Source: a virus. From it: DNA of 21,948 nucleotides. The DNA lies in the IMG/VR virus record IMGVR_UViG_3300009177_000682, positions 1 through 21,948 of that record. One strand, given 5' to 3'. Positions within the stretch are counted from its first letter, which is position 1. Each line of letters starts with the position of its first letter. Under the pieces are notes generated by a model. That model had not been told where the DNA came from. It did not search any database and was given only the letters and a program-made list of their open reading frames with translations. The position numbers were made by a program, and so were the translations under genes. This document shows, one piece after another, positions 1,104 through 18,907 of this stretch.

Positions 1104-1892
1104 ATGCCCAAGACGACGCAGATCGGCGCGAAGCCCGTAGACAACGGCATGCTCGGCAACACGCCAGCCCCCGCACCCGCGCTCGGCTGGGGCTCCACGC
1201 CCGCAGGCGGGGGCGGTGGCATCGGCTGGGGCTCGAGCCCAGGCGGTACGGGTGGCATCGGCGGCGGTGGCGGCACGGGCGGCTTGCAGGGCCTGCTCGG
1301 CGATCTTCGCGGCGGCCTCGGTGGTGGCGGGGCGATCCCGCAGCCCTGGGTGGACATGTACAACCGGCAGACGCCCGGCACGCAGGCCGCGATGTCCTCG
1401 CGCTGGTCCGGGATGAGCCCCGACGCGATCACGAACGACTGGAACACGAACATCCAGCCGCGCTACGGTCCCGGCACCACGCCGGATCAGATCCTCGGCG
1501 GCGCGCCCACCCTGGGCGGCGGTGGCATGGGCAGCCTTGACCCGAGCGGCCCAGGGATGGGCGGCGCCGGGATGAGTGGCGCTCCTGCCGCGCCAGCCCG
1601 AGCAGGCTTCAAGCTCGGCAATCGCGGCGCCCAGAAGCGCATCAGCGGCGGCAATCCCTATGGCGCGCTGCGTACCGCGGCCACGGATGGCGGCCCGGCG
1701 AGCGCCCCGGGGCTCTTCGGCGATCCCGCGCCCAGTGGCGCAGGGCCAGAGCCCGCGAACTGGGCACCGCGTAGTGGTGGCAGTGCCGCACCCGCCAGTC
1801 CAGGCGGGACCAGCAGTGGGCCCGCCGCCGGTGGCGGGCTGCAAAGCCTGCTCACGCGCGCCCGGGCCATGAGCCCGTACGGGCAGGGATAG
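1104..1892 (+). CDS. Glycine-rich virion-associated protein with two GLQxLL motifs
   Basis: The protein has 262 residues and is dominated by Gly, Pro, Ala and Ser, with little predicted fold. The most ordered part is around residues 78-130 (IPQPWVDMYNRQTPGTQAAM and onward), which is polar and contains aromatic residues. Two copies of a short hydrophobic motif stand out from the glycine background: GGLQGLL at residues 59-65, and GGLQSLL near residues 244-250, shortly before the C-terminus. The same motif recurs in genes at 15791, 16277 and 17573. It starts four bases after the HTH gene stop, and a terminator follows. No known family is recognised. A flexible internal head protein, or a linker protein carried in the virion, is my inference from composition and the shared motif. 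Confidence 0.6.
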   Translation: MPKTTQIGAKPVDNGMLGNTPAPAPALGWGSTPAGGGGGIGWGSSPGGTGGIGGGGGTGGLQGLLGDLRGGLGGGGAIPQPWVDMYNRQTPGTQAAMSSRWSGMSPDAITNDWNTNIQPRYGPGTTPDQILGGAPTLGGGGMGSLDPSGPGMGGAGMSGAPAAPARAGFKLGNRGAQKRISGGNPYGALRTAATDGGPASAPGLFGDPAPSGAGPEPANWAPRSGGSAAPASPGGTSSGPAAGGGLQSLLTRARAMSPYGQG

Positions 1893-1945
1893 CCTAGCGA
1901 CTTCGAGCGATTTCATCGGGCGCGCCCTGATCAGGCGCCGTTAAG

Positions 1946-1965
1946 CCGGGCTCCTTGGAGCCTGG
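1946..1965 (+). other. Hairpin in the gap before the scaffold gene
   Basis: The arms CCGGGCTCC and GGAGCCTGG fold around a TT centre, with one G-T wobble. The hairpin lies upstream of the stronger terminator hairpin at 1983-2016 and has no T-run after it, so on its own it is not a classical terminator. It may stabilise the 3' end of the upstream transcript. Confidence 0.4.
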
Positions 1966-1982
1966 GCCACACGTAGCGGACC

Positions 1983-2019
1983 AAGGCCGCTGAGGGGGAA
2001 ACTCCTCGGCGGCTTTGTT
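1983..2019 (+). terminator. Intrinsic terminator between the portal cluster and the capsid cluster
   Basis: A 13-bp stem pairs 1983-1995 (AAGGCCGCTGAGG) with 2004-2016 (CCTCGGCGGCTTT), with two G-T wobbles and an eight-base loop. C1982-G2017 can extend it. The 3' arm runs directly into TTTGTT (2014-2019). It sits in the 173-bp gap between the glycine-rich gene and the scaffold gene, the second-longest non-coding stretch in the window. The scaffold and capsid genes may therefore have their own promoter or depend on read-through. I see no convincing -35/-10 pair or phage-polymerase promoter in the remaining bases up to 2065. Confidence 0.6.
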
Positions 2020-2065
2020 CGTTGCGCGCACCGCCGCGACCAAGGCGACGGCTCGCGAGTGAAGC

Positions 2066-2920
2066 ATGGAAGGGTTTGACCCGGGCGTTACGTCGGAGTC
2101 GCCCACCGGCACCGAAGTTCTCGACGACGGCGCACAGTCCGCGGGGACGTTAAACACCGACACCGCGCCACGCTCCCAGCCTCAGCCCACCGTTCCGTAC
2201 GAGCGCTTCCACGAAGTCAACACGGGGTATCGCCAGGCGGAAGCGCGGGCCGCGGCGGCCGAACAGGCCGCCCAGCTCCTCCGCGAGCAGGGCCAGCAGA
2301 CGCAGCAGCGCCTTGCCCAGCTCGAGAGCCAGCTCCAGACGCGCTCCCAGCAGGTCTCGCGCACCCCTGAGCAGGAGCAGGAGCGCCAGGCCGCGATCAA
2401 GGTGCTCGAAGAGCTCCAGAGCGCCAATCCCAATTACGCGCGGATGCAGCAGCTTGCGCAGGCCGCCCCCGCGCTCATCCAGAAGATCCTCGCGATGGAA
2501 GAGCGCCAGGCGCGCAGCGATGAACGCAGCGCGCGCGCGTTCATCGGTGGGGAACAAAGCCGCTTGCCCCAGATGGCTGCCGCCGCAGGCCTGACCCTCT
2601 CGGCCCAGCAGGGCGCGGCCTTTGAAAACTTCGTTGCGGGCATCATCCGCAGCAACCCGCAGGCCCATGCCGCGTTCGTCGGCGGGGATCAGCGCGTGCT
2701 GCCGTGGGCCTTCGACATCGCACGCCAAGAATACGCCGCGCAGCAGCAAGCCGCGCGCGCCTCCATCGCCCAGACCAAATCCCGGATGCCCCCGCCACGC
2801 ATCGGCGGCAGCACACCCGGCTCAACGCCGATCCCGAAGTACGACCCCAAGGATCACCGCGGCTCCATGGCCAAGATTCACGCCGGCGCCGCGGCGGCTT
2901 GGGAGCAGATGACGGGCTAG
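2066..2920 (+). CDS. Capsid scaffolding protein
   Basis: Scaffolding proteins form the inner core around which capsid subunits assemble, and they leave or are degraded before DNA packaging. This 284-residue protein lies directly before the major capsid gene, where scaffolds normally sit. Residues 1-40 are acidic and disordered. The segment VPYERFHEVN (residues 43-52) is a typical scaffold entry to the coiled coil. A long Gln/Ala/Glu-rich coiled coil follows (about residues 54-130). Later helices contain a Gly/Pro break near 240-255, and the protein ends in a short charged helix (DPKDHRGSMAKIHAGAAAAW), the usual capsid-binding element. The ATG at 2066 has only a weak Shine-Dalgarno-like GTGAAG upstream. 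No protease signature is visible, so a fused protease is unlikely. Confidence 0.8.
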   Translation: MEGFDPGVTSESPTGTEVLDDGAQSAGTLNTDTAPRSQPQPTVPYERFHEVNTGYRQAEARAAAAEQAAQLLREQGQQTQQRLAQLESQLQTRSQQVSRTPEQEQERQAAIKVLEELQSANPNYARMQQLAQAAPALIQKILAMEERQARSDERSARAFIGGEQSRLPQMAAAAGLTLSAQQGAAFENFVAGIIRSNPQAHAAFVGGDQRVLPWAFDIARQEYAAQQQAARASIAQTKSRMPPPRIGGSTPGSTPIPKYDPKDHRGSMAKIHAGAAAAWEQMTG

Positions 2921-2939
2921 GCGCCGCACAGGAGCCCCC

Positions 2940-4250
2940 ATGGCAGGACAAGACACCACCGCCGCCGACGCGATCCTCAAGGACTGGTACGAGGGCGCGA
3001 TCCGCGACCAGATCGTCACCAAGGCGAAGATGTACCGCCGCTTCCAGGACAAGGACGCCCATCAGTGGGGCGGCCGGCAGGTGACGTACCCGATCCGCAC
3101 GGGACGCAACCAGGGCATCGGCGCCTACGCGGAATCCGGCGCGTTCCCGACCCCGGGGCGCAACAGCTACACCACCGTGTCGATCCCGATGCGGTACGAG
3201 GGCGGGCGCATCCGGCTCACCTCGCAGGCCATGAAGCACTCGGCCTCGGACAAGGGCGCCTTCGCCTCGATCTTCCAGCAGGAGCAGGACGGGCTCGTGG
3301 AAGGGTTCGTGAACGAGTTCGGCCGCATGATCTGGTCCGACGGCCGCGGGGTGCTCGCGCTGGTCAACGGCGACCCCGGTACGGGCGTCACCGTGACACT
3401 CGACTCGCCCGGTGGCATGCCCGGCGCGCTGAACGGCTCACGCTTCCTGAATCTGAACGAGCTGATCACCTTCGTGGAGCCCGTGACGGGGGGCCTCCGC
3501 GCCGCCGCCGATGAGTTCGTGGCCGCGGTGCCCAACACCGGCCTCACGGTCACGATCGGCACCGCCGCCGCGGCCGTCATCGCCGACAACGACTTCGTGG
3601 TCCGCGCCAACGTGGCCGGCGTCACCGACATCTCGGGCACGAGTTATGCAAAGGAAGCGATGGGACTCAGAGGCCTCGTCGATGACGGGACCTATGTGGC
3701 CACACTCCACGGCGTCAACCGCACCTCGTACCCGATCTTCGCGTCGACCCTGATCGGCAGCGCGAGCTCGCCCGTCGGCGCGCTCTCAGCCGACGTGATC
3801 CAGCGCGGCCTCGACGTGGCCGAGCAGCGCGGCGGGGGCGACATCGACCTCTTCGCGTGCCACCACGCTGTCCGGCGCGCCTATCTGCAGCTCATGGACT
3901 CGGGTCGCCGCTACGCCGGGGGCGACCTCATGAGCCCCGACGCCGGGACCAAGGCCGCGAAGGGTCGCAACATGACCTTCGGCGGCATCGAGATGGAAGT
4001 CGACAAGTACGCCGACTACAACGTGCTGTACGGCCTCGACACCTCCACGCTGGTGCGCTTCGTTGAAGTCCCCGGCGAGTGGATCAACGACGACGGCGCG
4101 ATCCTGCGCCCGGTCGGCGTGGGCGCGACCTTCACCGACGAGTGGGAAGCCGCCTACCGCATCTGGCAGAACTTCCACAACGAGTACCCCAACAAGAGCT
4201 TCAAGCTCGAGGGCGTCACGGCGACCACCGTCGTGGTGCACGTCGACTAG
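2940..4250 (+). CDS. Major capsid protein, HK97 fold
   Basis: This is the main shell protein (436 aa), which assembles on the scaffold. The start at 2940 follows an AGGAG site at 2931-2935. An N-terminal helical arm (residues 7-35) comes first. An E-loop-like, Gly-rich beta section follows (about 44-95, with TYPIRTGRNQGIGAYAESG and RYEGGRIRLTSQAM). A long spine helix is next (about 105-135, FASIFQQEQDGLVEGFVNEF). Beta-rich peripheral and axial domains fill the rest. This order matches HK97-fold capsids of tailed phages. The region around residues 180-230 is an Ala/Val/Thr-rich beta section that may form an inserted subdomain. It ends two bases before the next start. The gene context makes the call firm even though the exact family cannot be named from sequence alone. 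Confidence 0.88.
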   Translation: MAGQDTTAADAILKDWYEGAIRDQIVTKAKMYRRFQDKDAHQWGGRQVTYPIRTGRNQGIGAYAESGAFPTPGRNSYTTVSIPMRYEGGRIRLTSQAMKHSASDKGAFASIFQQEQDGLVEGFVNEFGRMIWSDGRGVLALVNGDPGTGVTVTLDSPGGMPGALNGSRFLNLNELITFVEPVTGGLRAAADEFVAAVPNTGLTVTIGTAAAAVIADNDFVVRANVAGVTDISGTSYAKEAMGLRGLVDDGTYVATLHGVNRTSYPIFASTLIGSASSPVGALSADVIQRGLDVAEQRGGGDIDLFACHHAVRRAYLQLMDSGRRYAGGDLMSPDAGTKAAKGRNMTFGGIEMEVDKYADYNVLYGLDTSTLVRFVEVPGEWINDDGAILRPVGVGATFTDEWEAAYRIWQNFHNEYPNKSFKLEGVTATTVVVHVD

Positions 4251-4252
4251 CC

Positions 4253-4723
4253 ATGAGCACCTTCGCGGATGTCGACTTCTACACCAGCTTGGTCCTCGTG
4301 GATCGCCTCGGCCTCGGCGGCAAGGATGCCGAGTTCATGTTCGACGGCATCCCGTTCCCCTTCGTGGACGACGACGGCCAGGTCGTCACGGAAAAGGCCT
4401 TCCCGAAGTTCGTCGCCGAGTGGCTGTTCGGCAAAGAGAAGTTCCAGGTCTGGACGAAGGCGACGGAGACGCAGCCGACGCAGTTCGTCAACCGCTACGG
4501 CATCAAGAATTGCCCCAAGAAGCTGATCGATCTGCTGGGCGCCGAGGTCGCCGACTGCTCGCCCATCGAGCGCGACCCCGATGTCATCGAGGGGTCGGAT
4601 GCGCCCCTGTATCGCACGGAGCCCGTGCGCATCGAGCGCCTCTCGCTGCCCCCGAACGAACAACCCCGCGATCGGCTCGGCCGCAAGGGGAACATGACCG
4701 CAGTCCCCGCAGGGAGGGCGTAG
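4253..4723 (+). CDS. Unknown protein following the capsid gene (156 aa)
   Basis: The start is the ATG at 4253, two bases after the capsid stop. The protein is acidic at the N-terminus and mixed alpha/beta: MFDGIPFPFVDDDG (residues 24-37) looks like a beta hairpin. It is followed by a helix (FPKFVAEWLFG), a short polar stretch, and RYGIKNCPKKLIDLLG with two cysteines in the vicinity (near residues 86 and 102). The C-terminal third is Pro/Arg-rich and likely extended. I do not recognise a family. A head-completion or capsid-associated role is inferred only from its position directly after the capsid gene, where many phages encode head-tail joining proteins. Confidence 0.6.
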   Translation: MSTFADVDFYTSLVLVDRLGLGGKDAEFMFDGIPFPFVDDDGQVVTEKAFPKFVAEWLFGKEKFQVWTKATETQPTQFVNRYGIKNCPKKLIDLLGAEVADCSPIERDPDVIEGSDAPLYRTEPVRIERLSLPPNEQPRDRLGRKGNMTAVPAGRA

Positions 4724-4727
4724 CCCC

Positions 4728-5186: not shown

Positions 5187-5194
5187 GAGCCACC

Positions 5195-6692: not shown

Positions 6693-6696
6693 TCCC

Positions 6697-7799: not shown

Positions 7800-7805
7800 G
7801 CCCTC

Positions 7806-8957
7806 GTGGCCGACACCAAGATCTCCGGCCTGGCCGATGGCGCCCCGGCCCAGGCGACGGACATCGTCCCCGTGGCCCGTGGGGCGACCACGCGCCGCCT
7901 GTCGCTGACCAACCTCGCGACCCTCTTCGGGAGCACCTTCGCCGCGCTCGTGCACACGCACGCCGAGGCCGATGTGACCAACCTGGTCAGCGACCTCGCC
8001 GCGAAGGCGTCGACCACGCACGCCACCACGCACCAGGCGGGCGGTAGCGATCCCATCGCGCTGGACACACTCGCGGCGCCCACGGACGTGACCACGCTGA
8101 ACGTCACCTCGACCAAGCACGGGCTGACCCCGAAGTCGGGCGCGGATGCCACCACGTTCCTGAACGGGGCCGCCACGCCCGCCTATGCCGCCGTGAAGGA
8201 CTCCGACCTCGCCACCACAGACATCACCACGAACAACGTCACCTCCACCAAGCACGGCTTCGCGCCCAAGAGCGGAGCGGACGCCACGACCTTTCTGAAT
8301 GGCGCGGCGACCCCGGCCTACGCGGCGGTGAAGGACTCCGACCTCTCGACGAGCGACATCACCACCAATAATGTCGCGACGACCAAGCACGGCTTCGCGC
8401 CGAAGCTCCCCAACGACGCGACCAAGTACCTCGACGGCACGGGGGCCTACACCGTCCCCGTCGGCAGCGCGAGCGTGGTCAGCGTGCTCACGCTGGCCTC
8501 CGATGCCACGATCAACAGCACGACGACGGGCGTCGCGATCACCGGGCTCAACAAGGCGACGGGCACCGGCACCTTCGTCTTCCAGTACTACATCCGCCAC
8601 CAGAGCGCCGCGACCACCACAGGCGTGAAGTTCGGGATCAACCACACGGGCACGGTGACGGCCTTCGCGGCGACGATGCGGTTCGCGGGCCAGAGCGGCG
8701 CCCCGACGGCGCACGACCAGCAGCTCACCACGCCCGTGGCCATGTCCCACGCCTCCACGCGCGCCTTCACGACCACCGCGCCCGACCTGGGCCCGACCAT
8801 CTCGGTGGACGTGCAGGACGCGGACATGCTCACGGTGATCGACGGCTTCCTCATCGTCACCGTCACCGGGAACCTCGAGCTCTGGCATGCCTCCGAGGTG
8901 GCCTTTGCCTCCACGGTCAAGGCGGGCGCCTCGCTGGTGCTCATCAAGACGAGCTGA
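7806..8957 (+). CDS. Tail fibre / receptor-binding protein with tandem repeats
   Basis: It starts with GTG at 7806. Residues 1-42 (ADTKISGLADGAPAQATD, then IVPVARGATTRRLSLTNL) match the common phage-fibre N-terminus, which attaches the fibre to the particle. A short Thr/His linker follows (HTHAEADVTN, HATTHQAGGSDP). Residues 94-220 hold three tandem repeats with a STKHG(F/L)xPK core, a signature of phage fibre shafts. The last 160 residues form a beta-rich C-terminal head (TINSTTTGVAITGLN, FVFQYYIRHQSAATTTGVKF, LELWHASEVA), probably a trimeric receptor-binding domain. The protein totals 383 aa. It ends in TGATG with the next gene. The fibre assignment is secure; whether the fibre sits on the tail or the head is not. 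Confidence 0.8.
   Translation: MADTKISGLADGAPAQATDIVPVARGATTRRLSLTNLATLFGSTFAALVHTHAEADVTNLVSDLAAKASTTHATTHQAGGSDPIALDTLAAPTDVTTLNVTSTKHGLTPKSGADATTFLNGAATPAYAAVKDSDLATTDITTNNVTSTKHGFAPKSGADATTFLNGAATPAYAAVKDSDLSTSDITTNNVATTKHGFAPKLPNDATKYLDGTGAYTVPVGSASVVSVLTLASDATINSTTTGVAITGLNKATGTGTFVFQYYIRHQSAATTTGVKFGINHTGTVTAFAATMRFAGQSGAPTAHDQQLTTPVAMSHASTRAFTTTAPDLGPTISVDVQDADMLTVIDGFLIVTVTGNLELWHASEVAFASTVKAGASLVLIKTS
8085..8465 (+). repeat. Three 135-bp tandem coding repeats in the fibre gene
   Basis: The units begin at 8085, 8220 and 8355, each at a GAC codon, and encode 45 residues. The third is shortened to about 37 residues and ends in a DGTGAYTVP variant. Units 1 and 2 share 26 identical consecutive residues beginning at KSGADATTFL, although 15 of those 26 codons differ synonymously. 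The duplication is therefore old and the protein sequence is under selection. Confidence 0.9.
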
Positions 8958-9364: not shown

Positions 9365-9398
9365 CCCTGTCCACCGAGCACCACGAAGGAGCCACAGC

Positions 9399-9859: not shown

Positions 9860-10377
9860 CCCCCACGCAAGCGCCGCACCTCATCCGCGCCCTCCACGCC
9901 TTCGACCCGCAGATGCGGTGGCGGTGGGCCACCCACGGCAAGCACTGGGTCATCGAGCTGAAGATGCCCGAGCGCCAGCCCGCCTGGCTCCTGGAGCGCC
10001 CGAATCCGTTCGGGCACACGAACCGCGCCAAGGACACGTGGGACGGCTACAAGGAGGGCTACCTGTACGTGACGAAGATGAAGCATCCAGTGGAGTACCC
10101 ATGGGCCTTCATCGCCGAACACCTGCGCCACCTGAGCCTGGAGGCGCACGCCGCGAAGGATCGGCTGATCGACCGCCTCGACGCTGCGGAAGCGGAGGAG
10201 GAGGCGCGCAACCAGCGGGCGTGGAATGTCATCAACGAGCAGGGCGCGAAGGAACTCTACGACAGGCTCCAGTGGGATAACAAGCGCGCGATCTCGACCC
10301 ACGTCGCGGGGCCGAATCCCCTGCGCCACGAGCATGACGGCTACGTGGTCTACGACCGGCGCACGGTGAACGCCTGA
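9856..10377 (+). CDS. Unknown protein before the adaptor gene (173 aa)
   Basis: It starts with GTG at 9856, overlapping the previous stop by four bases and preceded by CGGAG at 9844-9848. The N-terminal 80 residues are rich in Trp, His and Arg (MRWRWATHGKHWVIELKMP, then WDGYKEGYLYVTKMKHP) and look like a small beta domain. Residues 90-145 form a long charged helix (SLEAHAAKDRLIDRLDAAEA, then EEEARNQRAW). The end is polar with aromatic residues (HEHDGYVVYDRR). I do not recognise the family. The tight coupling to the adaptor gene suggests it belongs to the head-tail connection or its assembly. Confidence 0.58.
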   Translation: MTPTQAPHLIRALHAFDPQMRWRWATHGKHWVIELKMPERQPAWLLERPNPFGHTNRAKDTWDGYKEGYLYVTKMKHPVEYPWAFIAEHLRHLSLEAHAAKDRLIDRLDAAEAEEEARNQRAWNVINEQGAKELYDRLQWDNKRAISTHVAGPNPLRHEHDGYVVYDRRTVNA

Positions 10378-11126
10378 TGGCCAACGAAGCCCGGCGCACG
10401 CTCACGCAGATGATGGCCTCCGTGCGGAGCGCGCTGGACGAGCAGACCGCCTCCTTCTGGTCTTCCGACCCCGATCTCTACACCGTCTTCACGCGCGCTG
10501 CCCATGCCGTCGCCACGGAGGTGCGCCGCATCCGCGAGGACTACTTCGTGCGCTCGCTCGCCTCCACGGACGCCTCGTACGTCTTCGGCGGGGAGACCTA
10601 TGCGCCCTCGTCGCTGGCCATCGTCGCGGGCACGGCCGAGTACACGCTGCCGCCCGATCTGCTCGAGCTGAAGCTGATCGAGGGCATCACGACGAACTAT
10701 ACGGGCACCGTGTTCGAGTATCGCGACATCACGGACCCGGCCCACCGCGCGTCGCGGGCCGCCACGACGAATCAGTCGCCGAACGGCGGGTTCTACTTCG
10801 ACATCCTCGGCGAGCGGACGCTGACCATCGCCCCGAAGAGCGACACCGCCTTCGACGTACGCATCACGTACATCAGCAGCGCGATCATTCGCAGCTCGGC
10901 CGACGTGTACCAGATGGACTTCCTCGCCACCACCGATCAGCTCGTGATGCCGTTCCCTGGCTACATGGCCGTCGAAGAAGTCGCCACCATGCGCGCGATG
11001 CTGAAGGACAGCAACGTGATGGCCGCCGCGTGGGCCAAGATGGCCGAGAACAGCGTCCAGCGCCTCTTCAGCGCAGGCGCGCGCCAGTCCCAAGACACGA
11101 CGGTCGTCCAGAGCATGTTCGAGTGA
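10377..11126 (+). CDS. Head-tail adaptor (connector) protein
   Basis: The start overlaps the previous stop (TGATG). The protein has 249 residues. It opens with a helix pattern typical of phage adaptor proteins that sit under the portal: TLTQMMASVRSALDEQTASF, a short loop with SSDPDLYTVFTRA, and a long helix HAVATEVRRIREDYFVRS. A beta domain follows (AEYTLPPDLLELKLIEG, FYFDILGERTLTIAPKSD, VRITYISSA), then a C-terminal helical pair (LVMPFPGYMAVEEVATMRAM). It lies next to the nozzle gene, as adaptors do in T7-like (gp11-gp12) and P22-like phages. It would seal the portal and anchor the tail. The exact family cannot be decided from sequence by eye. Confidence 0.7.
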   Translation: MANEARRTLTQMMASVRSALDEQTASFWSSDPDLYTVFTRAAHAVATEVRRIREDYFVRSLASTDASYVFGGETYAPSSLAIVAGTAEYTLPPDLLELKLIEGITTNYTGTVFEYRDITDPAHRASRAATTNQSPNGGFYFDILGERTLTIAPKSDTAFDVRITYISSAIIRSSADVYQMDFLATTDQLVMPFPGYMAVEEVATMRAMLKDSNVMAAAWAKMAENSVQRLFSAGARQSQDTTVVQSMFE

Positions 11127-12709
11127 GCCCGTTCGCGATCCCGTCGGTCGGCCAGAAGCTCAAGTCCTATCGCGTCGACTCCTTCGCGGGCGGCGTGGAT
11201 GTGAAGACGACGAAGCTGCGCCTGTCGCGCCTGAAGAATGGCAATCGCCTCACGCAGGGCGACTCGATGGTGCTCACCACCGAGGGCGGCGTCACCAAGC
11301 GCTTCGGCAAGGTGGCGATCAACGCCACCACGCTGGGCGCCTCCGTGAAGATCCTCGGCGGCACCCAGTTCCGCCTCTCGAGCGGCACCGACTACCAGGT
11401 GGTGGGCACGAGCGACGGGCGCGTGGTCCGGATCAACACCGATGGAACCACCAGCAATCTCGCCACGGGCAAGTCCACCAACGCGGGCGTGCGCTACCGC
11501 TTCGCCACCTACAACGATCTCCTGCACATCACGAACGGCTACGACGCGCCGATGACCTGGGACGGCACCACGTTCCAGAACATGGCGGGCTCGCCCCCGG
11601 CCACGGGCCAGGTGATCGTGATGCACGGCAACCGCGCCTTCATGACCGCCCGCGCAGTGCCGTCGCGCCTGTACTGGTCCGCGCTGAACAATACGGTGAG
11701 CTGGACCGGCACGACGGACGCGGGCTTCATGGACGTGGAGCCCAATGACAACTCGATCCTGATCGACCTCGTCTCCTCCATCCAGGAGCTGGTGATCCTG
11801 AAGGGGCGCCGCCCGTATCGCCTCCAGGGCATCGGGCCGTCGACCGGCTACACGGTGGCCGATCATCTGGTGCCCACGGTGGGCTCGGTGGGCGCGGTCT
11901 CCTCGCAGGGGGCCGTCTTCGCGCTCAACGATGTCTTCTATGTCTCCGAGCTGGGCGTGCACCAGCTCACGCAGACGCAGCAGTTCGGCGACCTGAAGGA
12001 GGCGTTTCTCTCCGACCGCATCGAGCCCTACTTCCGCCTCGATAGCGAGGTGGCGCTCTCCATCAACCAGTTGAACTGGGCGGTGTGCGCCTACGACTCC
12101 CAGGCCAACAACATCATGGTGGTCGCCGACTCCGACAACGACGGCGTGAACGACACCACGCTCTGCTACGACAACATCCTCAAGGCGTGGACGATCTGGC
12201 CCAACACGCCCTACGCGTCCCTCTTCACCGTGCGCCATCCCACGACCGGCGCCCGCGAGGTGTGGGCGGGCGGCTACGACGGCTTCGTGTACTCCCTCAC
12301 GCGCTCCTCGGGCTCCACGGAGCAGATCAGCGGGATTGCCTCCTACATCACGGACCTTGGCGAGCCCGGTGTCCAGAAGAGCGTCCGCTACGGGTTCTTC
12401 TACTTCTCCACGGAGGACTTCGGCTCCGTGCAGATTTCGACCCAGTTCGACTTCGGCGCGGCGGGGGGCCAAGTCTACACCGCTGATCTCTCGGCGGGCT
12501 CCACCCTCTGGGATAGCGCGCACTGGGACATTGGCCTCTGGGATTCAGGCGGGCCGCGTACGGGGATCTTCCGGCTCGACCTGAGCGGCCTCGGCGAGGT
12601 GGTGGAGTTCACCGTGCAGAACCTGCAACCCGACCAGCCCTTCACGTGGCTGGGCTTTGAATGCTTCTATCGCGACCGGCGCCACATCCGGCGCCCACGG
12701 AGCCTGTAA
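11123..12709 (+). CDS. Tail nozzle / hub protein, beta-propeller-like (P22 gp10 or T7 gp12 type)
   Basis: It starts with GTG at 11123, overlapping the adaptor stop. The 528 residues show repeated blade-like blocks: TDYQVVGTSDGRVVRINTDG, LLHITNGYDAPMTWDG, SRLYWSALNNTVSW, ELVILKGRRPYRLQG, FALNDVFYVSELGVHQL and EVWAGGYDGFVYSL. The N(G)YDAPMTWDG and SRLYWSA elements are characteristic of podovirus nozzle or stabilisation proteins that close the portal channel after packaging. A D-x-D-x-D-G-x-x-D loop at residues 336-344 resembles a calcium site. The C-terminal 90 residues are beta-rich, with several Trp-Asp pairs (LWDSAHWDIGLWDSGG). Order with the adaptor gene supports the role. Confidence 0.78.
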   Translation: MSPFAIPSVGQKLKSYRVDSFAGGVDVKTTKLRLSRLKNGNRLTQGDSMVLTTEGGVTKRFGKVAINATTLGASVKILGGTQFRLSSGTDYQVVGTSDGRVVRINTDGTTSNLATGKSTNAGVRYRFATYNDLLHITNGYDAPMTWDGTTFQNMAGSPPATGQVIVMHGNRAFMTARAVPSRLYWSALNNTVSWTGTTDAGFMDVEPNDNSILIDLVSSIQELVILKGRRPYRLQGIGPSTGYTVADHLVPTVGSVGAVSSQGAVFALNDVFYVSELGVHQLTQTQQFGDLKEAFLSDRIEPYFRLDSEVALSINQLNWAVCAYDSQANNIMVVADSDNDGVNDTTLCYDNILKAWTIWPNTPYASLFTVRHPTTGAREVWAGGYDGFVYSLTRSSGSTEQISGIASYITDLGEPGVQKSVRYGFFYFSTEDFGSVQISTQFDFGAAGGQVYTADLSAGSTLWDSAHWDIGLWDSGGPRTGIFRLDLSGLGEVVEFTVQNLQPDQPFTWLGFECFYRDRRHIRRPRSL

Positions 12710-13297: not shown

Positions 13298-13299
13298 CC

Positions 13300-13464: not shown

Positions 13465-14051
13465 GGCATACCAAGCCGCTGCGCCGCAACTGCGTGGTGA
13501 TCGGGCTCGGCTCGGCCATCGACCCCACCACGCTGGAGGCCCCCGGCACCACGGGCCAGGTGCTCACCGCCGTCACGGGGGGGCCGCCCGCCTTCGCCGC
13601 CCCCGCCGCCGTGAGCCTGACCACGGGCGTGACCGGCGTGCTCCCGCTCGCCAACGGGGGCACGAACCAGACAATCGGCGTGGTCGTGCCGATTCTCCTG
13701 CAAGCGACGGCGGTCGCGCCTGGCACGGTCTTCCTCGGGCTGGGCAACGAGGATGCGACCGAGGCCAACGTGCAATGGCCGAGCGCCTTCACGGGGACGC
13801 TCATTCGCGCCTACGTCGTCACGACGGGCGCCCCAGGCGGCACGGAGACGTTCACCTATCGCCCCCGGATCGGCGGCGCCGTCGTGGGCAACACCCTCAC
13901 GCTGACGGGCGCCGCGACGACCGGCAACATCACCTTCAGCCAGTCGACGGCCATCGCACTCGGCGACCTCTTGTCCTACCGCCTCGTCGTGTCGGCCGCC
14001 GCGGGCACCTTCAGCCACCAACTCATGCTGATGGTGCGGATCGACGGCTGA
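13461..14051 (+). CDS. Fibre-like protein with the GVLPLANGGT motif (196 aa)
   Basis: It starts with GTG at 13461, overlapping the previous stop. After a short basic N-terminus (RHTKPLRRNC), residues 18-75 contain LEAPGTTGQVLTAVTGGPPA and VTGVLPLANGGTNQ. The latter is a well-known phage fibre element that precedes a shaft or head domain. The last 120 residues are beta-rich (VVPILLQATAVAPGTVFLGL, TLIRAYVVTTGAPGG, ETFTYRPRIGGAVVG, LLSYRLVVSAAAGTF), consistent with a small trimeric head. No enzymatic motif is visible. It ends in TGATG with the following internal-protein gene. Confidence 0.65.
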   Translation: MRHTKPLRRNCVVIGLGSAIDPTTLEAPGTTGQVLTAVTGGPPAFAAPAAVSLTTGVTGVLPLANGGTNQTIGVVVPILLQATAVAPGTVFLGLGNEDATEANVQWPSAFTGTLIRAYVVTTGAPGGTETFTYRPRIGGAVVGNTLTLTGAATTGNITFSQSTAIALGDLLSYRLVVSAAAGTFSHQLMLMVRIDG

Positions 14052-15460
14052 TGGCGCCGCGCTACGTCCGGATCGCGCCCCAGGCCCCCACGGGCGCCGA
14101 CGATGACCTCGGCACCGCGCTCCAGAGCCTCGCCCCCGCAGGCGCCCTCGCCAAGGGCGCGGGCAAGCTCAGCGGCAACACGGACCTGGGCAACGCGGGC
14201 ACCGGGCTGGCGGGTCTGCTCTCGCTTACCCGCGGCATCGCCAAGGGCGACCCGGGCCAAGCGGTGGGCGGCGCGGCCAACGTGGGCAGCGGGCTCGCAG
14301 GCCTCGCGGACTACCCGGGCGTGGCCGATACCTTGGGCGCGGTCGGTGGCCCGCTCACCCTGGCCACGGGCCTGGCCTCGGGCGACCCGCTGAGCAGCAC
14401 GCTCGGGGGCCTCCAGACCGCGAGCCTGGCCAGCGGCTACCTGGGTGGCCCCACGCTCGGGTCGCTCGCGACCGAGGGCCTGGCCGCGGCGGGCTTGGAT
14501 AGCGCCACCCTGGCCGCGATGGGCGGGCTGGGCGGGCTCAGCGTCGCCTTGGCGCCTGCCGCGCTCACGCTGCTGCTCGGCTCCGTGGACTTCAAGGGCG
14601 CGGGCCTGGATGACATGCTCTTCGGCGGCTACAAGCCAATCGAGCAGCGCCAGCTCGAGGAGTACAAGCGCTACGCCGCCGACTTCCCCGGCCTCGCGGC
14701 GCGGCGCACGGCGGGCGCCAAGACGTTCGACACGCTGGGAGACATGGACACGCCCGACGAGATCAGCCAAAGCCTCGCCACGGCCGCCAGCGGCGCGCAC
14801 GCGAACGTGGAACCGGCCGCCTGGAACGTGGGCCACACGCCGCATCGGCTCAAATTCGACGCGCCCGACATGTCGTCCTGGAACGCGGCCAGCCCCGAAC
14901 TGGGCGGCCACAACCAGGCCGCATTCCTGGGCCTGATGGACAAGGGCCAGGCGGCCGGGCTGGACACGGGCGGCATGACGGGGGACTGGAACCTCGGCCA
15001 GTGGGTGCCCTTCGACCAGAACGGGCGCATGGAGTACACGCCGCTCGGCCCCAATACCACGGGCTCCGACTACCGCACGCGCCTCGGCCTGAACGAAGTG
15101 GGCGATCCCGCCCAGACGCAGGAGGCGCAAGACCTCGGCAACGCGGTGAGCGGGATGGCGCGGCATCTGGGCGTGGACCTGCGGAGTAAGGGCGAGGGGG
15201 ACTACGAGAACTTCAACCCCGACCAGTTGGCGGGCTACGGTTTCACGCCGGGGAATTATGGGCTGGCCAGTTTGAACTACTTGCGATCGTTCGATCCAAA
15301 TGTGTCCCAAAACCCCGAGTGGGCGAGCTACGCGTCGGCGCTCGACCCGAACAACGCGCTGGCCGACCTGGACCCGCTCACGCTGACGCCACGGAAGCGG
15401 GCGAGCCTGGCAACGCCCTACTCCGAGTTCAACCTGGGGAGCGGGGGAGGGACGGCATGA
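14051..15460 (+). CDS. Probable internal virion (ejection) protein with Gly/Ala/Leu N-terminal half
   Basis: The start overlaps the previous stop (TGATG). The protein has 469 residues. Residues 20-180 are almost only Gly, Ala, Leu, Ser and Thr, ending in a strongly hydrophobic stretch near residues 150-178 (GGLSVALAPAALTLLLGSV), which could insert into a membrane. Residues 185-470 are polar and helical, with Asp/Asn/Tyr-rich loops (EQRQLEEYKRYAADFPG, HTPHRLKFDAPDMSSW). Podovirus ejection proteins often combine such membrane-active segments with long polar regions and lie after the tail genes. A degenerate copy of the shared motif (ALQSLAP, residues 23-29) and GLAGLLSL (near 52-59) are present. 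The role is an inference from composition and order. Confidence 0.55.
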   Translation: MAPRYVRIAPQAPTGADDDLGTALQSLAPAGALAKGAGKLSGNTDLGNAGTGLAGLLSLTRGIAKGDPGQAVGGAANVGSGLAGLADYPGVADTLGAVGGPLTLATGLASGDPLSSTLGGLQTASLASGYLGGPTLGSLATEGLAAAGLDSATLAAMGGLGGLSVALAPAALTLLLGSVDFKGAGLDDMLFGGYKPIEQRQLEEYKRYAADFPGLAARRTAGAKTFDTLGDMDTPDEISQSLATAASGAHANVEPAAWNVGHTPHRLKFDAPDMSSWNAASPELGGHNQAAFLGLMDKGQAAGLDTGGMTGDWNLGQWVPFDQNGRMEYTPLGPNTTGSDYRTRLGLNEVGDPAQTQEAQDLGNAVSGMARHLGVDLRSKGEGDYENFNPDQLAGYGFTPGNYGLASLNYLRSFDPNVSQNPEWASYASALDPNNALADLDPLTLTPRKRASLATPYSEFNLGSGGGTA

Positions 15461-15462
15461 TG

Positions 15463-15636
15463 CTAGTTGTCGCTCCAGCAGTAGCCGCGATTATGGGTCG
15501 CCACGGCCAGGAAGAGACGCACGGCGCTGCGAAGAGCCTCGGTCGCCTCGTCTTCGGTGCGCCCCTGCGAATAGAGCCGGAGCATCGTGGCGTTCGCCAC
15601 GTAGGTCTGCGACTCCGCGTCCCACCGCATAGTCAT
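15463..15636 (-). CDS. HicB-antitoxin-like protein (57 aa), minus strand
   Basis: This is the only gene I can support on the minus strand. Read from 15636 down to 15463 it gives a 57-residue HicB-fold domain: MRWDAESQTYVANAT as the first two strands (compare W-D-x-E-x-x-x-Y-V-A in HicB), LYSQGRTEDEATEAL as the S-Q-G-x-T-x-x-E-A core, and SAVRLFLAVATHNRG as the second helix. Third positions are G/C in about 49 of 57 codons, as in a coding frame. HicB proteins neutralise HicA mRNA interferases. No hicA-like partner is visible, and the usual C-terminal DNA-binding part is absent. No Shine-Dalgarno precedes the ATG; instead, a perfect inverted repeat ends three bases upstream. The frame is open further upstream but lacks a start codon. 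An orphan antitoxin, or a HicB-fold protein of another role, are both possible. Confidence 0.68.
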   Translation of the reverse strand: MTMRWDAESQTYVANATMLRLYSQGRTEDEATEALRSAVRLFLAVATHNRGYCWSDN

Positions 15637-15638
15637 TC

Positions 15639-15686
15639 GCCAGAGGCCGTCCTGGTCCCTGGGGAGAGGCGGGGACGGCCTCTGGC
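15639..15686. promoter_or_regulatory. Perfect 14-bp inverted repeat beside the HicB-like start codon
   Basis: The left arm GCCAGAGGCCGTCC (15639-15652) and right arm GGACGGCCTCTGGC (15673-15686) are exact reverse complements with a 20-base spacer. In the minus-strand transcript the hairpin ends two bases before the AUG of the HicB-like gene, where a ribosome-binding site would lie. It may be an operator, or an RNA structure controlling translation. No T-run follows on either strand, so it is not a standard terminator. Confidence 0.7.
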
Positions 15687-15742
15687 TGCCCGCAAGAACC
15701 TCAACGGGCCCGATCCTACCACGGGTTGTGGGCGAAAGAGTG

Positions 15743-15757
15743 ATAGGGTCTACCTAT
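15743..15757. promoter_or_regulatory. Small inverted repeat ATAGG-N5-CCTAT
   Basis: The perfect 5-bp arms ATAGG (15743-15747) and CCTAT (15753-15757) are separated by five bases. They lie in the locally AT-richer stretch where a promoter for the rightward operon would be expected, and abut the parS-like site. It is operator-like in form, but short enough to arise by chance. Confidence 0.35.
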
Positions 15758-15772
15758 GTTCCACGGGAAACA
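15757..15772. promoter_or_regulatory. parS-like 16-bp site
   Basis: TGTTCCACGGGAAACA differs from the chromosomal parS consensus TGTTNCACGTGAAACA at one position (G for T at the tenth base). The left half-site is intact; the right half-site carries the change within the central CACGTG. It lies 18 bases before the start codon of the gene at 15791 and just ahead of its ribosome-binding site. ParB-type proteins bind parS and spread on DNA. No ParA or ParB gene is in the window, so binding by the host protein is a hypothesis only. Confidence 0.4.
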
Positions 15773-15790
15773 TTCCGATAGGAGCGCCTG

Positions 15791-16267
15791 ATGGCTGAGG
15801 GTCTCCAGGGCTTGCTTGCGCACTTGGCGGGGTCCGCTATTGGCCCGTCCGAGACGCAATCGCTCCTCCAGCAATTGGCCGACCAAGATCCAGAGGCCGC
15901 CGACAAGATGATGGACCGGCTTGGCTACGGCCACCGCCCGGCGCGGCGCACGCTCGGCGAGGGCGCTGGGCTCTACTGGGACGCGCGCCACCCGACCCAA
16001 GGCGGCACCCAGCGAGTGGAGTCATCGGTCGGCGCCCCGAGTGCGGATCACTACCGGCTCGTCGACAGCATGGAAGAGGGGCACGACGTGCTGGGGCGCG
16101 GCGAGAAGCCGCTCCTCATCGGCAACCTGGAAGACATCAACCCCGACGAGATCGACCCCCGCGTGCTGCGGCAACTCCAGGAAGACCAGTGGGCCGCACC
16201 GGGCGGCACGCCGCTCTGGGGCGACATGGGCACCAGCGGGGGCCTCCAGGGCCTCTTGCGGCAATAG
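15791..16267 (+). CDS. Unknown protein with GLQGLL at both ends (158 aa)
   Basis: A good AGGAG (15780-15784) lies six bases before the ATG at 15791, the first gene of the operon that reads away from the control region. The protein starts MAEGLQGLLAHL and ends GGLQGLLRQ, so one copy of the shared motif sits at each terminus. Between them are a helical part (residues 20-45, QSLLQQLADQDPEAADKMMD), a polar middle with RTLGEGAGLYWDARHPTQGG, a short alpha/beta region (DHYRLVDSMEEGHDVLGRG, KPLLIGNLEDINPDEIDP), and a Pro/Gly tail. No enzyme motif is recognised. Two motif copies in one protein could bridge two partners in the virion, which is an inference. Confidence 0.6.
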   Translation: MAEGLQGLLAHLAGSAIGPSETQSLLQQLADQDPEAADKMMDRLGYGHRPARRTLGEGAGLYWDARHPTQGGTQRVESSVGAPSADHYRLVDSMEEGHDVLGRGEKPLLIGNLEDINPDEIDPRVLRQLQEDQWAAPGGTPLWGDMGTSGGLQGLLRQ

Positions 16268-16276
16268 GAGTATGTG

Positions 16277-17101
16277 ATGGCCGACTTCGACTGGGATAGC
16301 CTGCTGGGCGGCTTCAGTAGCGAGATGCCGACCGACTGGCTGTCGGCGGTCGCGGGTGGCGCCGACCTCTCCAATATGGTGCTGGATACCGCCACCGGGC
16401 AACTCGTGGACATCGCGAGCCTGAGCCCGGAAGACCTCACGGACCTGGACGGGGAGGGCCTGACGGGCGGCGGCTCTGGCCAGCTCAACCTCGGCCCGAG
16501 CTCCACGTCGACCAGCGACCATCTGCGCAGCCTCCAGGCCGATCCGAACACGCCTGGCAGCGAGCCCTTCGACTGGAACGCCATGGCCGATCCCAGCGCG
16601 TCCATCGCCAGCGCGGACGACAACGGGTGGGGCAAGGCGCTGGCGCAAGGCCTCAGCAACGCGCTGAGTGGCGCGGGCGGCGGCTTAAAGGGCCTGATGG
16701 GCGATCCCAGCGGGGGCGGCCCGACTCCGGGCGGCGCAGGCGGTCTCGCCGGGGGCCAGCCGAGCCTCATGGGCGACCCTGGCCTCGTGGGCGACCCCGG
16801 GCGCCTGAGCGGCGGCGCCCCCAGCGTGCTCGGCGACCTCATGGGCCCACCCTCGGGCGGCGGGCTGCAATCGCTCCTGCACCCGGGGAGCCAGGATGCC
16901 GTTGGCGCCCAGTACACCGCGACGGCGGGCGTGCCGCGCTCCCCGCTGACCATGCAGTCGGCGATTGACCCGGGCCCCGCGCCGCGGCCGTTTACTCCGC
17001 TCGCGCTGCCGACGGCGGGCGGGCCCCTGCCGATGGCGGGCCAGGCGCCGATGCCGCGGCTTTCGGGGCTGCAGCGCCTACTTTCAGAAAGGCTCGGGTG
17101 A
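16277..17101 (+). CDS. Gly/Pro/Asp-rich protein with three GLQxLL-type motifs (274 aa)
   Basis: AGGAG at 16266-16270 is six bases before the ATG at 16277; an in-frame GTG three bases earlier is less well placed. The N-terminal 75 residues are acidic with aromatic anchors (ADFDWDSLLGGF, PTDWLSAVAGGADL). Residues 130-200 are low-complexity repeats built on GDP and GG (LMGDPSGGG, LMGDPGLVGDPGRLSGGAPS). Three motif copies occur: GGLKGLM (16682-16699), GGLQSLL (16862-16879), and SGLQRLLSERLG at the very C-terminus (17063-17098). It is likely largely disordered, like the gene at 1104, with which it shares this architecture. The stop overlaps the endonuclease start (TGATG). No family is recognised. 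Confidence 0.58.
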   Translation: MADFDWDSLLGGFSSEMPTDWLSAVAGGADLSNMVLDTATGQLVDIASLSPEDLTDLDGEGLTGGGSGQLNLGPSSTSTSDHLRSLQADPNTPGSEPFDWNAMADPSASIASADDNGWGKALAQGLSNALSGAGGGLKGLMGDPSGGGPTPGGAGGLAGGQPSLMGDPGLVGDPGRLSGGAPSVLGDLMGPPSGGGLQSLLHPGSQDAVGAQYTATAGVPRSPLTMQSAIDPGPAPRPFTPLALPTAGGPLPMAGQAPMPRLSGLQRLLSERLG

Positions 17102-17568
17102 TGGCTGAGATCCAGTTGACGCAAGGGAAGGTCGCTTTGGTTGATGACGCGGACGTGCCGCTCGTCATGGGCCACAAGTGGTACGCGGTCAGACATGCGA
17201 CTGGCATCTGGTATGCGCAGTCAGGTCGAGCGCGCTCGAGCAAGCTCATGCATCGCCTGATCCTCCCAGATGCGCCTCGCATCGACCACTGGGACCGCGA
17301 CGGGCTGAACAACCAACGTGGCAACTTGCGCCCATGTACGGCCAGCCAGAATCTGGCGAACTCACGGCATCAAGTCGGCGGCACTAGTCACTATAAAGGA
17401 GTGTGCTGGGTTACGAGAGAGCGCCGCTGGCGAGCCCAACTGAAATCCAACTACCGCACAGTCTGCCTGGGCTACTTCACAGACGAGATCGCCGCGGCCA
17501 GGGCCTACAATGCTGGCGCGCTCGCGACTTGGGGCGAGTTCGCCTGCCCCAACGTGATCGAGGAGTAA
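17101..17568 (+). CDS. HNH-AP2 homing endonuclease, free-standing
   Basis: Free-standing HNH enzymes of this type cut DNA at phage sites that lack the gene and spread by repair of the break. Residues 4-40 are the usual N-terminal part (IQLTQGKVALVDDADV, then HKWYAV). Residues 50-87 hold the HNH core: MHRLIL, D62-H63, the NNQRGNLR block with N71 and N75, and N84 and N87. Residues 97-151 are an AP2-type DNA-binding domain (YKGVCW, RWRA, LGYF, AAARAYN, GEFACPN). Codons such as AAA, GGA, ACT, AGT and TCA make the gene visibly less G/C-biased than its neighbours, a sign of separate origin. It lies between two virion genes, starts by TGATG overlap, and is 155 aa, a normal length. It appears intact. 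Confidence 0.88.
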   Translation: MAEIQLTQGKVALVDDADVPLVMGHKWYAVRHATGIWYAQSGRARSSKLMHRLILPDAPRIDHWDRDGLNNQRGNLRPCTASQNLANSRHQVGGTSHYKGVCWVTRERRWRAQLKSNYRTVCLGYFTDEIAAARAYNAGALATWGEFACPNVIEE

Positions 17569-17572
17569 CGCC

Positions 17573-18907
17573 ATGCCAACAGCGCCCGACACGCGCAATC
17601 CGTGGCAGGACTACGGCGTCGCGCCGAATGCCCCGAACAACTGGGTAGGCGGCGACGGCTCCATGGAAGCCGCCTGGGCCGAGCCCATGCACCAGTATCA
17701 GGACACGTTCGACGCCAGCGGCAAGCGCATCGCGGGCGCCAAGGTGTACAAGCCCGGCTATGGCGCGGGCGCCGATCCCAACACGGTGGTCAGCCTCGGC
17801 GGCTACGGGGGCTACGGCGGCACGGGTGGCGGCGGCATGAGCGGGTCGTACACGGGCGGCGGCACAGGGGCTGGGGGCTACTCGCTCCCCGATCCCACGG
17901 GCGCCTCGGCCGCGATGCGCGCGCTTCAAATGAAGTCGATGGGCGGCCTGCAAGGGCTCCTCTCGCAGGACACGAGCGCGCAGCGGCAGAAGATCCAGGA
18001 TGCGCTCTACGAGACCTCCTCGCGTGGGATCAACACGGCAGCGGATCGCGCGCGGCAGACCATGCTCGAGGGCACCTTCGGGCGCGGGGTCGGCTCCTCC
18101 TCCATCGGCGTGGAGCTCGCCGGGCGCCAGCAGCAGGAGCAGAGCGACGCGCTCGCGCAGGCCGCCCGCGAGGCCTTCACCCAGGCGGGCGCCGAGCAGC
18201 GCGCGGACCTGGCCTCCGCGCTCGGGCTGAATCAGGGCGCGTTCAATAGCGCGACGGCCGGGCTCCAGGGCGAGGCCAACGTGGCGCTCGCCAACCTGGC
18301 GCGCGAGCAGCAAGCGAACCAGTTCGCGCAAAACCTCGGCTTCCAGGGCACGCAGAATGATCTCAACCGCGCGCAGGCCGCGAGCCAGTTTCAGGGGCAG
18401 CTCGGGCTCAACTATGCGCAGCTCGGGCAGCAGAACGACCAGTTCGGCCGCAACATGGGCTTTCAGGGCGAGCAGAACCAGCTCAACCGCGATCAGAGCA
18501 CGAGCGAGAACGCGCTCAACCGGCAGCTCCAGCAAATGCTCCTCGACAGCCAGCAGGGCTTCGCGGGCGGCCAGAACGAGGCCACGCGGGCGCTGCAGAA
18601 GTACCTCGCCGACTCACAGCAGGCCTTCCAGGGCACGCAAAACCAGCTCGGGCGCGACTTCCAGAGCACGCAGAGCCAGTTGGGCCGCGACTTCACCGGG
18701 AGCCAGAACCAGCTCAACCGCGACTTCACTGGCGGGCAGAATCAGTCGGGGCGCGACGCGGCGATGCAACAGCTCCTCCTCTCGCTGGAGGCGCAGGATC
18801 AGCGCGCACAGAACAGCACGGTCGCGGGGGCGCTCGGGAGCGGTATCACCGGCTTCGGGAACCTCGTGGGGCCGCTGCTGAAGCAGTGGGCGGGAGGGAC
18901 GACCTAG
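17573..18907 (+). CDS. Probable internal virion protein with 11-residue repeats and a GLQGLL motif (444 aa)
   Basis: GAGGAG lies just upstream of the ATG at 17573, overlapping the endonuclease stop. Residues 1-110 are Gly/Tyr/Ser-rich and flexible. GGLQGLL follows at residues 124-130. Residues 131-240 are helical (RQKIQDALYETSSRGINTAA, QQQEQSDALAQAAREAF). From about 240 to 400 the protein is Gln/Asn-rich, with recurring FQGxQNxLNR units that end in four exact 11-residue repeats. The C-terminus is hydrophobic (ALGSGITGFGNLVGPLLKQW). Long Gln-rich helices with an 11-residue period are seen in coiled-coil ejection proteins that could form a conduit through the cell envelope. That role is inferred; the absence of any enzyme motif supports a structural function. 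Confidence 0.58.
   Translation: MPTAPDTRNPWQDYGVAPNAPNNWVGGDGSMEAAWAEPMHQYQDTFDASGKRIAGAKVYKPGYGAGADPNTVVSLGGYGGYGGTGGGGMSGSYTGGGTGAGGYSLPDPTGASAAMRALQMKSMGGLQGLLSQDTSAQRQKIQDALYETSSRGINTAADRARQTMLEGTFGRGVGSSSIGVELAGRQQQEQSDALAQAAREAFTQAGAEQRADLASALGLNQGAFNSATAGLQGEANVALANLAREQQANQFAQNLGFQGTQNDLNRAQAASQFQGQLGLNYAQLGQQNDQFGRNMGFQGEQNQLNRDQSTSENALNRQLQQMLLDSQQGFAGGQNEATRALQKYLADSQQAFQGTQNQLGRDFQSTQSQLGRDFTGSQNQLNRDFTGGQNQSGRDAAMQQLLLSLEAQDQRAQNSTVAGALGSGITGFGNLVGPLLKQWAGGTT
18626..18757 (+). repeat. Four 33-bp tandem repeats encoding 11-residue units
   Basis: Units begin at 18626, 18659, 18692 and 18725 and read FQGTQNQLGRD, FQSTQSQLGRD, FTGSQNQLNRD and FTGGQNQSGRD. An 11-residue period fits a hendecad coiled coil. 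Related, more diverged units (FQGTQNDLNRA, FQGEQNQLNRD, FAGGQNEATRA) occur earlier in the same gene, so the repeat family has expanded stepwise. Confidence 0.88.

Follow-up and report, generated by a model that had tools for sequence, protein, structure and literature searches.

The window examined in this work, which comprises positions 1 to 21,948 of a 21,948-base virus record with a GC content of 69%, encodes four otherwise unlike proteins (designated A, B, C, and D) that together carry seven copies of the hexapeptide GLQ[GSR]LL. That this peptide is selected appears almost certain, and it is a lineage-specific short linear motif, varying from lineage to lineage, whose general core, as judged from the sequences compared, should be written as G-L-x-[GSR]-L-[LIMV]. 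The motif probably acts as a virion-loading or docking signal. The carrier proteins and the motif copies are as follows (G and L numbers designate related records and loci).

1104..1892, plus strand: protein A, 262 amino acids, Gly-rich, between portal and scaffold; two motif copies; relatives in L009, L011, and L013
1281..1298, plus strand: motif copy A1, GLQGLL, residue 60 of A, in frame
1836..1853, plus strand: motif copy A2, GLQSLL, residue 245 of 262; aligned with GLQGLI in L009/L011 and GLPGLI in L013
15791..16267, plus strand: protein B, 158 amino acids, motif at both ends, in the cluster behind the tail genes
15800..15817, plus strand: motif copy B1, GLQGLL, residue 4 of B, in frame
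16241..16258, plus strand: motif copy B2, GLQGLL, residue 151 of 158, in frame
16277..17101, plus strand: protein C, 274 amino acids, Gly/Pro-rich; relatives in G001 (47%) and G011 (E 0.001 over 59 amino acids)
16682..16699, plus strand: degenerate copy GLKGLM in C; GLSGLA in the G001 homologue
16862..16879, plus strand: motif copy C2, GLQSLL; GLQGLV in G001
17066..17083, plus strand: motif copy C3, SGLQRLL, C-terminal; SGLQRLM in G001 and G011
17573..18907, plus strand: protein D, 444 amino acids, Gln-rich helical repeats; relatives in G001, G011, and G035
17945..17962, plus strand: motif copy of D, GLQGLL, residue 125 of 444; GLQGLM in G001

All seven copies lie in the reading frames given for them in a preliminary description of this DNA, whose coordinates hold, some of its intervals taking in the preceding Gly, and the degenerate GLKGLM was confirmed at 16682-16699. 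Their placement was also as claimed, at both ends of B, near the C terminus of A and C, and internally in D; one copy is N-terminal, three lie within 12 residues of the C terminus, and three are internal. The comparison with shuffled sequences that the same description had called for was run on 27 ORFs (open reading frames) of the window, one of them read through a stop. GLQ[GSR]LL was observed 7 times, as compared with a mean of 0.008 and a maximum of 2 in 1000 residue shuffles, and the 7 observed copies of GLQ.LL contrasted with a mean of 0.031 and a maximum of 2 in residue shuffles (n = 1000) and with a mean of 0.068 and a maximum of 1 in dipeptide-preserving shuffles (n = 500). GLQ.LL was the most repeated 5-of-6 pattern in the 27 ORFs (7 copies; the peak in 100 shuffles was 2-4), and at the DNA level the window contained 7 forward and 0 reverse matches, with 0.10 expected.

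The four carriers are otherwise unlike, as had been stated: their best pairwise BLASTP match had an E value of 0.079, the top matches being the motif itself, and when the motif was masked the best E value was 1.8. Protein C and the neighboring protein encoded from 14051 showed a weak match outside the motif (E 0.012). Shuffles and BLASTP comparisons together indicated that the motif recurs in non-homologous proteins above chance, as befits a short linear motif. The codons differ between copies, Leu being encoded by TTG, CTG, CTC, CTA, and CTT in different copies. A DNA repeat or a DNA signal was rejected because the codons vary while the reading frame is constant.

A search with the capsid protein revealed the close relatives G001 (48 kb, capsid 87% identical), G002, G003, G004, and G005. 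When the last residue was relaxed to GLQ.L[LIMV], 7 of 11 records showed a match, as compared with 0/11 for the reversed-pattern control, and the form ending in [IMV] was present in four of the five close records (G001, G002, G003, and G005), the fifth, G004, being a 10-kb record that begins within the capsid gene, stops before the B-D cluster, and covers no carrier gene. The seven matches in G001 are all on the coding strand: GLQGLI occurs twice in A, GLQGLV and the C-terminal SGLQRLM in C, GLQGLM in D, and GLQGLV both near the N terminus of a 161-amino acid protein adjoining C and at the C terminus of a 68-amino acid protein. The latter is a small beta protein that was not found in the window, and the former is a B-like protein, which starts MPGGLQGLV where B starts MAEGLQGLL, although the similarity is not significant (E 0.11); a tblastn search with B against G001 gave no homologue (best E 0.34). 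Of the genes called in G001, 5 of 32 in the portal-to-ejection half of the genome hold all seven copies, and the 38 in the other half hold none. Protein A of L013 (G005) contains GLQSLI and GLPGLI, and GLQSLI and GLQRLL are present in the protein at A's place in G010 (capsid 41% identical), which was counted as a relative of A by position and motif. G010 (L068 and L069) is a mosaic with respect to the window, its tail protein being 91% identical over 247 amino acids and its capsid and scaffold 41% and 42%, respectively.

The enrichment of the motif was compared, with 300 shuffles, in 35 stretches drawn from 34 records, of which many are partial; the gene caller used there misses window gene A and therefore counts 5/7 of the window copies. 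The 7 copies of GLQ.L[LIMV] in G001 (0.10 expected) and the 2 copies each in G002, G003, and G010 (0.01-0.02 expected) were reached by 0/300 shuffles. The GLQ form was above shuffles in the window, G001, G002, G003, G005, G007, and G010, and single GLQ copies were present in G011 (reached by 13/300 shuffles) and MW202554 (22/300).

The motif was better conserved than its surroundings. At five window-G001 sites that align (in A, C, and D), residues 1-5 of the motif were kept in 22/25 cases versus 98/217 for the flanks; when all seven sites were compared, by adding the looser site of the 14051 protein and A1, which does not align between the window and G001, the values were 27/35 and 153/317. 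The window, G001, and G011 share the same SGLQRL at the C terminus of C, a protein whose overall identity among them is 36-56%. In the window and L013 the internal copy of A precedes the conserved domain, in L009/L011 it follows that domain, and the G010 protein has one copy near the N terminus and one further in. The motif thus recurs in the same and in different proteins of relatives and moves within one protein, which bears out the earlier suggestion that the peptide, and not the DNA, is selected. Position 6 was Leu in 7/7 GLQ copies of the window versus 0/7 in G001 (Fisher p 0.0006; 7/8 versus 0/8 when the K/S variants are included, p 0.0014), a test that counts sites sharing the history of one genome. 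A concerted change of this residue in unlike proteins is as expected if all carriers face one pocket.

The small beta protein is the best natural experiment: among 39 loci, its widespread domain is tagged only in relatives of the window phage. This domain (RLAFKG..VVEAKNxKTGATHTPxEF) was found at 39 phage loci, examples being L085 (10001-10207), L101 (6966-7151), and L107 (10031-10240), and the protein ends in the motif at 6 of them, which represent four distinct tails: GLQGLVS (G001 and the nearly identical L021), GGGLRSLL (G011), SGLSRLVRDTDMDKG (L044 and L045), and GGLSRLMEE (L107, that is, G035). The six are all relatives of the window phage; five have, in addition, genes for a capsid of 47% or higher identity and for a scaffold matching that of the window, and the sixth, L021, is a fragment with an 81% tail protein. 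The other 33 loci end otherwise, mostly in a basic tail, with L099 cut by the contig end. Among these 33, 29, many of them fragments, showed no match to any of nine window proteins, L118 had a weak tail-protein match, and three encoded a related capsid (L091, 38%; L098, 35%; L117, 50%) with no scaffold match at the same threshold.

The motif-ending small proteins have 61-69 amino acids, and about 54 in a case where an internal ATG may be the start, and their genes adjoin the portal and scaffold genes. The family showed no Pfam match (one member scanned), no match to PDB sequences, and a weak PHROG match in 1/30 members. An AlphaFold model contained three strands and one helix, with pLDDT (predicted local distance difference test) values of 75-92 over the domain and of 56 and 49 in the last two blocks, where the motif lies; a fold search with it gave no significant match in PDB (best E 0.67) or BFVD (best E 0.08).

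A capsid alignment yielded 28 loci, and 24 more distant records were scanned with the DNA pattern. G011 (capsid 53%) was the sole one of the 24 with a match that could be placed in a carrier homologue, namely the SGLQRLM that ends C; in the same record a 61-amino acid protein ends in GGGLRSLL, the next frame in GGLKSLL, and a Gly-rich protein preceding the scaffold in GQGLSSLY. In a less selective count, a broader pattern was present in the last 22 residues of 19/2645 sense versus 4/3153 antisense ORFs, near-duplicate records included. Among 25 copies listed by hand, 13 lay within 20 residues of the C terminus versus 3.4 expected, a comparison that is partly circular: GLSSLY was taken in as C-terminal, the fixed G, L, and L are a product of the selection by hand, and the list leaves out the near-duplicates G002, G003, G007, and G014 as well as looser copies, e.g. 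GLKGLM, GLAGLL, GLSGLM, GLSSLL, GLADLV, GLGGLI, GLRGLV, and GLQDLV. The motif-bearing peptides of the lineage include GGGLRSLL and SGLQRLLSERLG. No match to D, the 18910 protein, or two members of the small-protein family was found in a collection of isolate phages, and a scan of genome contigs with the capsid alignment gave no relative.

The gene order of the window is the C-terminal part of a portal, protein A, a scaffold-like protein, the major capsid protein, a block of unknown genes 3' of the capsid gene, some of which probably encode tail fibers, an SU10-type adaptor, a tail protein, and, last, six large genes without an assigned function (14051, B, C, D, 18886, and 20442). The genes that matter for the interpretation of the motif, in addition to those of the carriers, are as follows.

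1..642, plus strand: portal, C-terminal part, motif-free; 80% identity to the 3' part of the 800-amino acid G001 portal
2066..2920, plus strand: scaffold-like protein, candidate partner, motif-free; precedes the capsid gene; 62% identity in G001
2940..4250, plus strand: major capsid protein; phrog_14242 major head protein, 1.5e-36
10377..11126, plus strand: head-tail adaptor-like protein; Pfam SU10_adaptor, 4.1e-10
11123..12709, plus strand: tail protein; 27% to MW202554 14380-15891, annotated as 'phage stabilization protein'; weak phrog_8094 tail appendage match
14051..15460, plus strand: 469-amino acid protein in the same cluster as B-D; degenerate GLAGLL at 14204-14221

The 800-amino acid G001 portal matches phrog_156 portal and Pfam P22_portal (E 3.8e-6, exactly at the curated cut-off), and with this match and the 80% identity of the C terminus in the window, the virus was treated as a presumptive podovirus-like phage with a P22-type portal and head module; the relative MW202554 is described by its depositors as Podoviridae sp. 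The portal showed no match to PDB sequences, and a profile search with the capsid alignment gave one, NAD synthetase (E 0.0016), taken as chance. A scaffold function is inferred for the product of 2066..2920, which has a weak tropomyosin (coiled-coil) Pfam match below the cut-off and matched no scaffold family in the family scans. The G001 homologue of the 14051 protein contains GLSGLL.

Some further features of the region were observed. Protein D holds 33-nucleotide (11-amino acid) Gln/Asn-rich repeats of the type FQGTQNQLGRD at 18337-18757, comparable Gln-rich stretches are present in its G001 and G011 homologues, and its AlphaFold model (mean pLDDT 46) was too poor for judging disorder or fold. 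The 7806 gene, whose product is probably a tail-fiber-like protein, contains three tandem copies of a 135-nucleotide (45-amino acid) unit at 8080-8405. Between C and D (17098-17568) there is an ORF with HNH and AP2-like Pfam matches, both below cut-offs, whose G001 relative sits elsewhere (46780-47262), as expected for a mobile homing endonuclease. The capsid protein itself has a GLRGLV (3663-3680, residue 242) that fits the looser motif; it was set aside as a motif carrier, since none of 24 capsid proteins, among them those of relatives without the motif, departs from G242 and D248, and this segment is probably structural, although the tag could conceivably mimic a capsid segment. The spacing of the sliding-clamp binding motif, which we take to be Q-x-x-L-[FL], does not fit the present motif.

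We propose that a single lineage of uncultured podovirus-like phages, with a portal of the P22 type, uses G-L-x-[GSR]-L-[LIMV] as a short linear docking motif. The motif would ride on the ends or linkers of unrelated minor proteins, namely protein A and, in relatives, the small beta protein, both encoded beside the head genes, and proteins B, C, and D, which are encoded in the cluster behind the tail genes and are, from this position, probably ejection proteins. A common head component would offer one hydrophobic pocket for the Leu/Leu/aliphatic face of the motif, and docking into this pocket would load the carriers into the procapsid. We infer that the motif binds, that its carriers are internal virion proteins, and that the receptor is a head protein, most likely the scaffolding protein. 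The window genes matched in all of G001, G010, G011, G013, and G035 are those of the portal, scaffold, and capsid, gene 9856, and two tail genes, a list that may be too short because G010 and G013 are partial records, and among them the portal, scaffold, and capsid proteins face the head interior. In P22, ejection proteins are missing from shells formed in the absence of scaffold, and the portal is not needed (PMC8402733); furthermore, the inner end of the scaffold column in the P22 procapsid structure has been proposed as the docking site of ejection proteins (PMC12005531). Because of this P22 precedent the scaffold is the partner of first choice, with capsid and portal remaining as candidates, and its identification as the receptor is tentative. 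A still bolder version, in which the motif is a universal portable cargo tag and all minor internal proteins are loaded through a single receptor pocket, probably one of the scaffolding protein, is conceivable but doubtful; under it, any protein gaining the core at a flexible end would become cargo, and the small beta protein would be a natural example of such recruitment.

Several observations weigh against this proposal. The exact GLQ.LL DNA pattern was found in 0/5 of the close records, so that of the conservation in close relatives on which the preliminary description had staked its reading, the LL form was lost, whereas the motif with an [IMV] ending was kept in 4/5, the remaining record, G004, being without carrier genes. 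The relaxed pattern had no match in G004, G006, G008, and G009, and a single one, GLQDLV, in MW202554. Among the 24 more distant records, 14 GLQ-type matches were present in 10, and the reversed control gave 13 in 10 records; these distant matches are regarded as background because the control gives about as many, G011 being excepted by the place of its match in C. G013, G014, and G035 had the looser form alone, enriched modestly or not at all, G035 had no GLQ-type DNA match, and the remaining relatives among the 35 stretches showed nothing convincing. No GLQ copy was found in G020 (capsid 50%, scaffold match 28%, E 4e-10), a partial record that lacks a gene between those for portal and scaffold and in which B, C, and D found no match. 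The count at C termini, when made alike over 46 later loci (L075-L120), was 7 sense (6 of them in G001, G011, or G035) versus 7 antisense, and in 25 small-protein records the pattern gave 14 matches versus 13 for the reversed control. The small protein of L117 (capsid 50%, portal 33%) ends in GLETLR, which is not the motif, the A counterpart of G010 has no C-terminal copy, and in D the complete motif stands at the corresponding alignment position in just the window and G001, with GLASLL at another place in G035 and no more than GLSQLA in G011. The single genome history behind the last-residue test counts on the same side, as does common descent, which confounds the link of the motif to this head type and could on its own produce the association between the small protein and the head type. 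Finally, the status of the carriers as virion proteins, their docking, and their co-packaging are putative, and gene order is what the label of ejection proteins for B-D rests on, because A-D had no PHROG match and A, C, and D, which the Pfam scan took in, matched no Pfam family.

Other explanations were considered beside that of a loading or docking signal. It is scarcely credible that the motif reflects a chance, codon, or composition effect of a Gly/Leu-rich genome of 69% GC or a signal at the DNA level, even though the carriers are Gly-rich, copy A1 and the degenerate copy of C sit in 38-nucleotide stretches that are 76% alike, and looser 4-of-6 patterns such as GL.GL. exceeded shuffles in the window by only a modest margin; composition-matched shuffles gave 0.03-0.07 copies of GLQ.LL, the seven copies are all in their gene's own frame with varied codons, the reversed control gave 0, and the motif is kept in relatives. 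For the window and G001, the shuffle counts refute chance. A role of the motif as the site at which a maturation protease cuts, e.g. after LQ, is also highly improbable. The head proteins of some other phages undergo processing and position 3 is Q in 18 of the 25 hand-listed copies, but the other 7 have S, K, R, A, or P there, copies at the last residue (GGGLRSLL and GGLKSLL) leave two or three residues to cut off, and a Pfam scan covering 23 window proteins (all but B and a few small ORFs) showed no protease family. A membrane-active amphipathic segment that acts during ejection into the host envelope would agree with the small hydrophobic LxxL[LIMV] patch and with the location of B, C, and D in a cluster that, by gene order, probably encodes ejection proteins; six residues with Gly, Ser, or Arg inside are, however, too short to span a membrane, and a head-side small protein also carries the motif in relatives, which makes this function very unlikely. 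Recruitment of a host factor, in assembly or after injection, has a similarly slim chance, since a tag that is lineage-wide, goes with one head module, and in G001 is absent from the genes of the other genome half is more in keeping with a viral partner.

Alternatively, the motif might act after packaging, tying the minor proteins together or anchoring them to the portal barrel and so building an ejection assembly whose components were loaded without it. The two copies that A, B, and C each have in the window would allow bridging, and a cargo protein of crAss001 binds the portal through one of its domains and has a part folded on the portal wing (PMC10172136), which keeps a role of the portal alive. 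Nevertheless, copies at the extreme C terminus of small proteins encoded beside the portal and scaffold genes resemble address tags rather than parts of an ejection tube, and the P22 portal is not needed for incorporation (PMC8402733), though this observation concerns loading alone. Such an assembly role is considered unlikely.

As a loading signal, the motif would work like the T4 capsid targeting sequence or an encapsulin cargo peptide, a likeness drawn from descriptions of these systems. One conserved capsid targeting sequence brings diverse internal proteins of T-even phages into the scaffolding core (PMC3012670), and the N-terminal ten residues of IpIII suffice in T4 (PMC8402733). The present case is similar in that one short sequence occurs on unlike proteins (seven copies in four proteins, whose internal location is putative), and it differs in that the motif, which comes from a phage with a portal of the P22 type, may stand at the C terminus, internally, or at the N terminus (the last in 1/7 window copies), sometimes with two copies per protein. 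The cargo loading peptide of encapsulins has about 10 residues, is C-terminal (N-terminal in one case), and fits a hydrophobic luminal pocket of an HK97-like shell, and several cargos can share one shell (PMC7355545). Our motif is likewise short and often C-terminal, with a putative binding to the shell, but its carrier is a phage with scaffold and portal, unlike encapsulins.

P22 gp7, gp16, and gp20 may be comparable to A-D as minor internal proteins, loaded in dependence on the scaffold, of a phage with the same portal family (PMC8402733, PMC12005531); A-D match no PHROG. In P22, gp20 binds via its N-terminal 314 residues and gp7 via residues 21-154, and no shared peptide is mentioned in the available part of that source (PMC8402733). 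In the open-licence literature no paper was found that describes the motif as a shared or loading signal in phage virion proteins; the letters GLQGLL occurred in one paper, which concerns a peptide conjugate for vaccination.

The loading of P22-type ejection proteins is unsettled, in that the scaffold is needed and the binding elements are known, from the accessible part of the source, just as large regions of gp7 and gp20 (PMC8402733). If the proposal is true, a single six-residue tag on many proteins would turn loading into a direct peptide-binding and fusion test, and it would provide a minimal tag for placing foreign proteins in phage heads and a route to those minor virion proteins of uncultured phages that homology searches miss.

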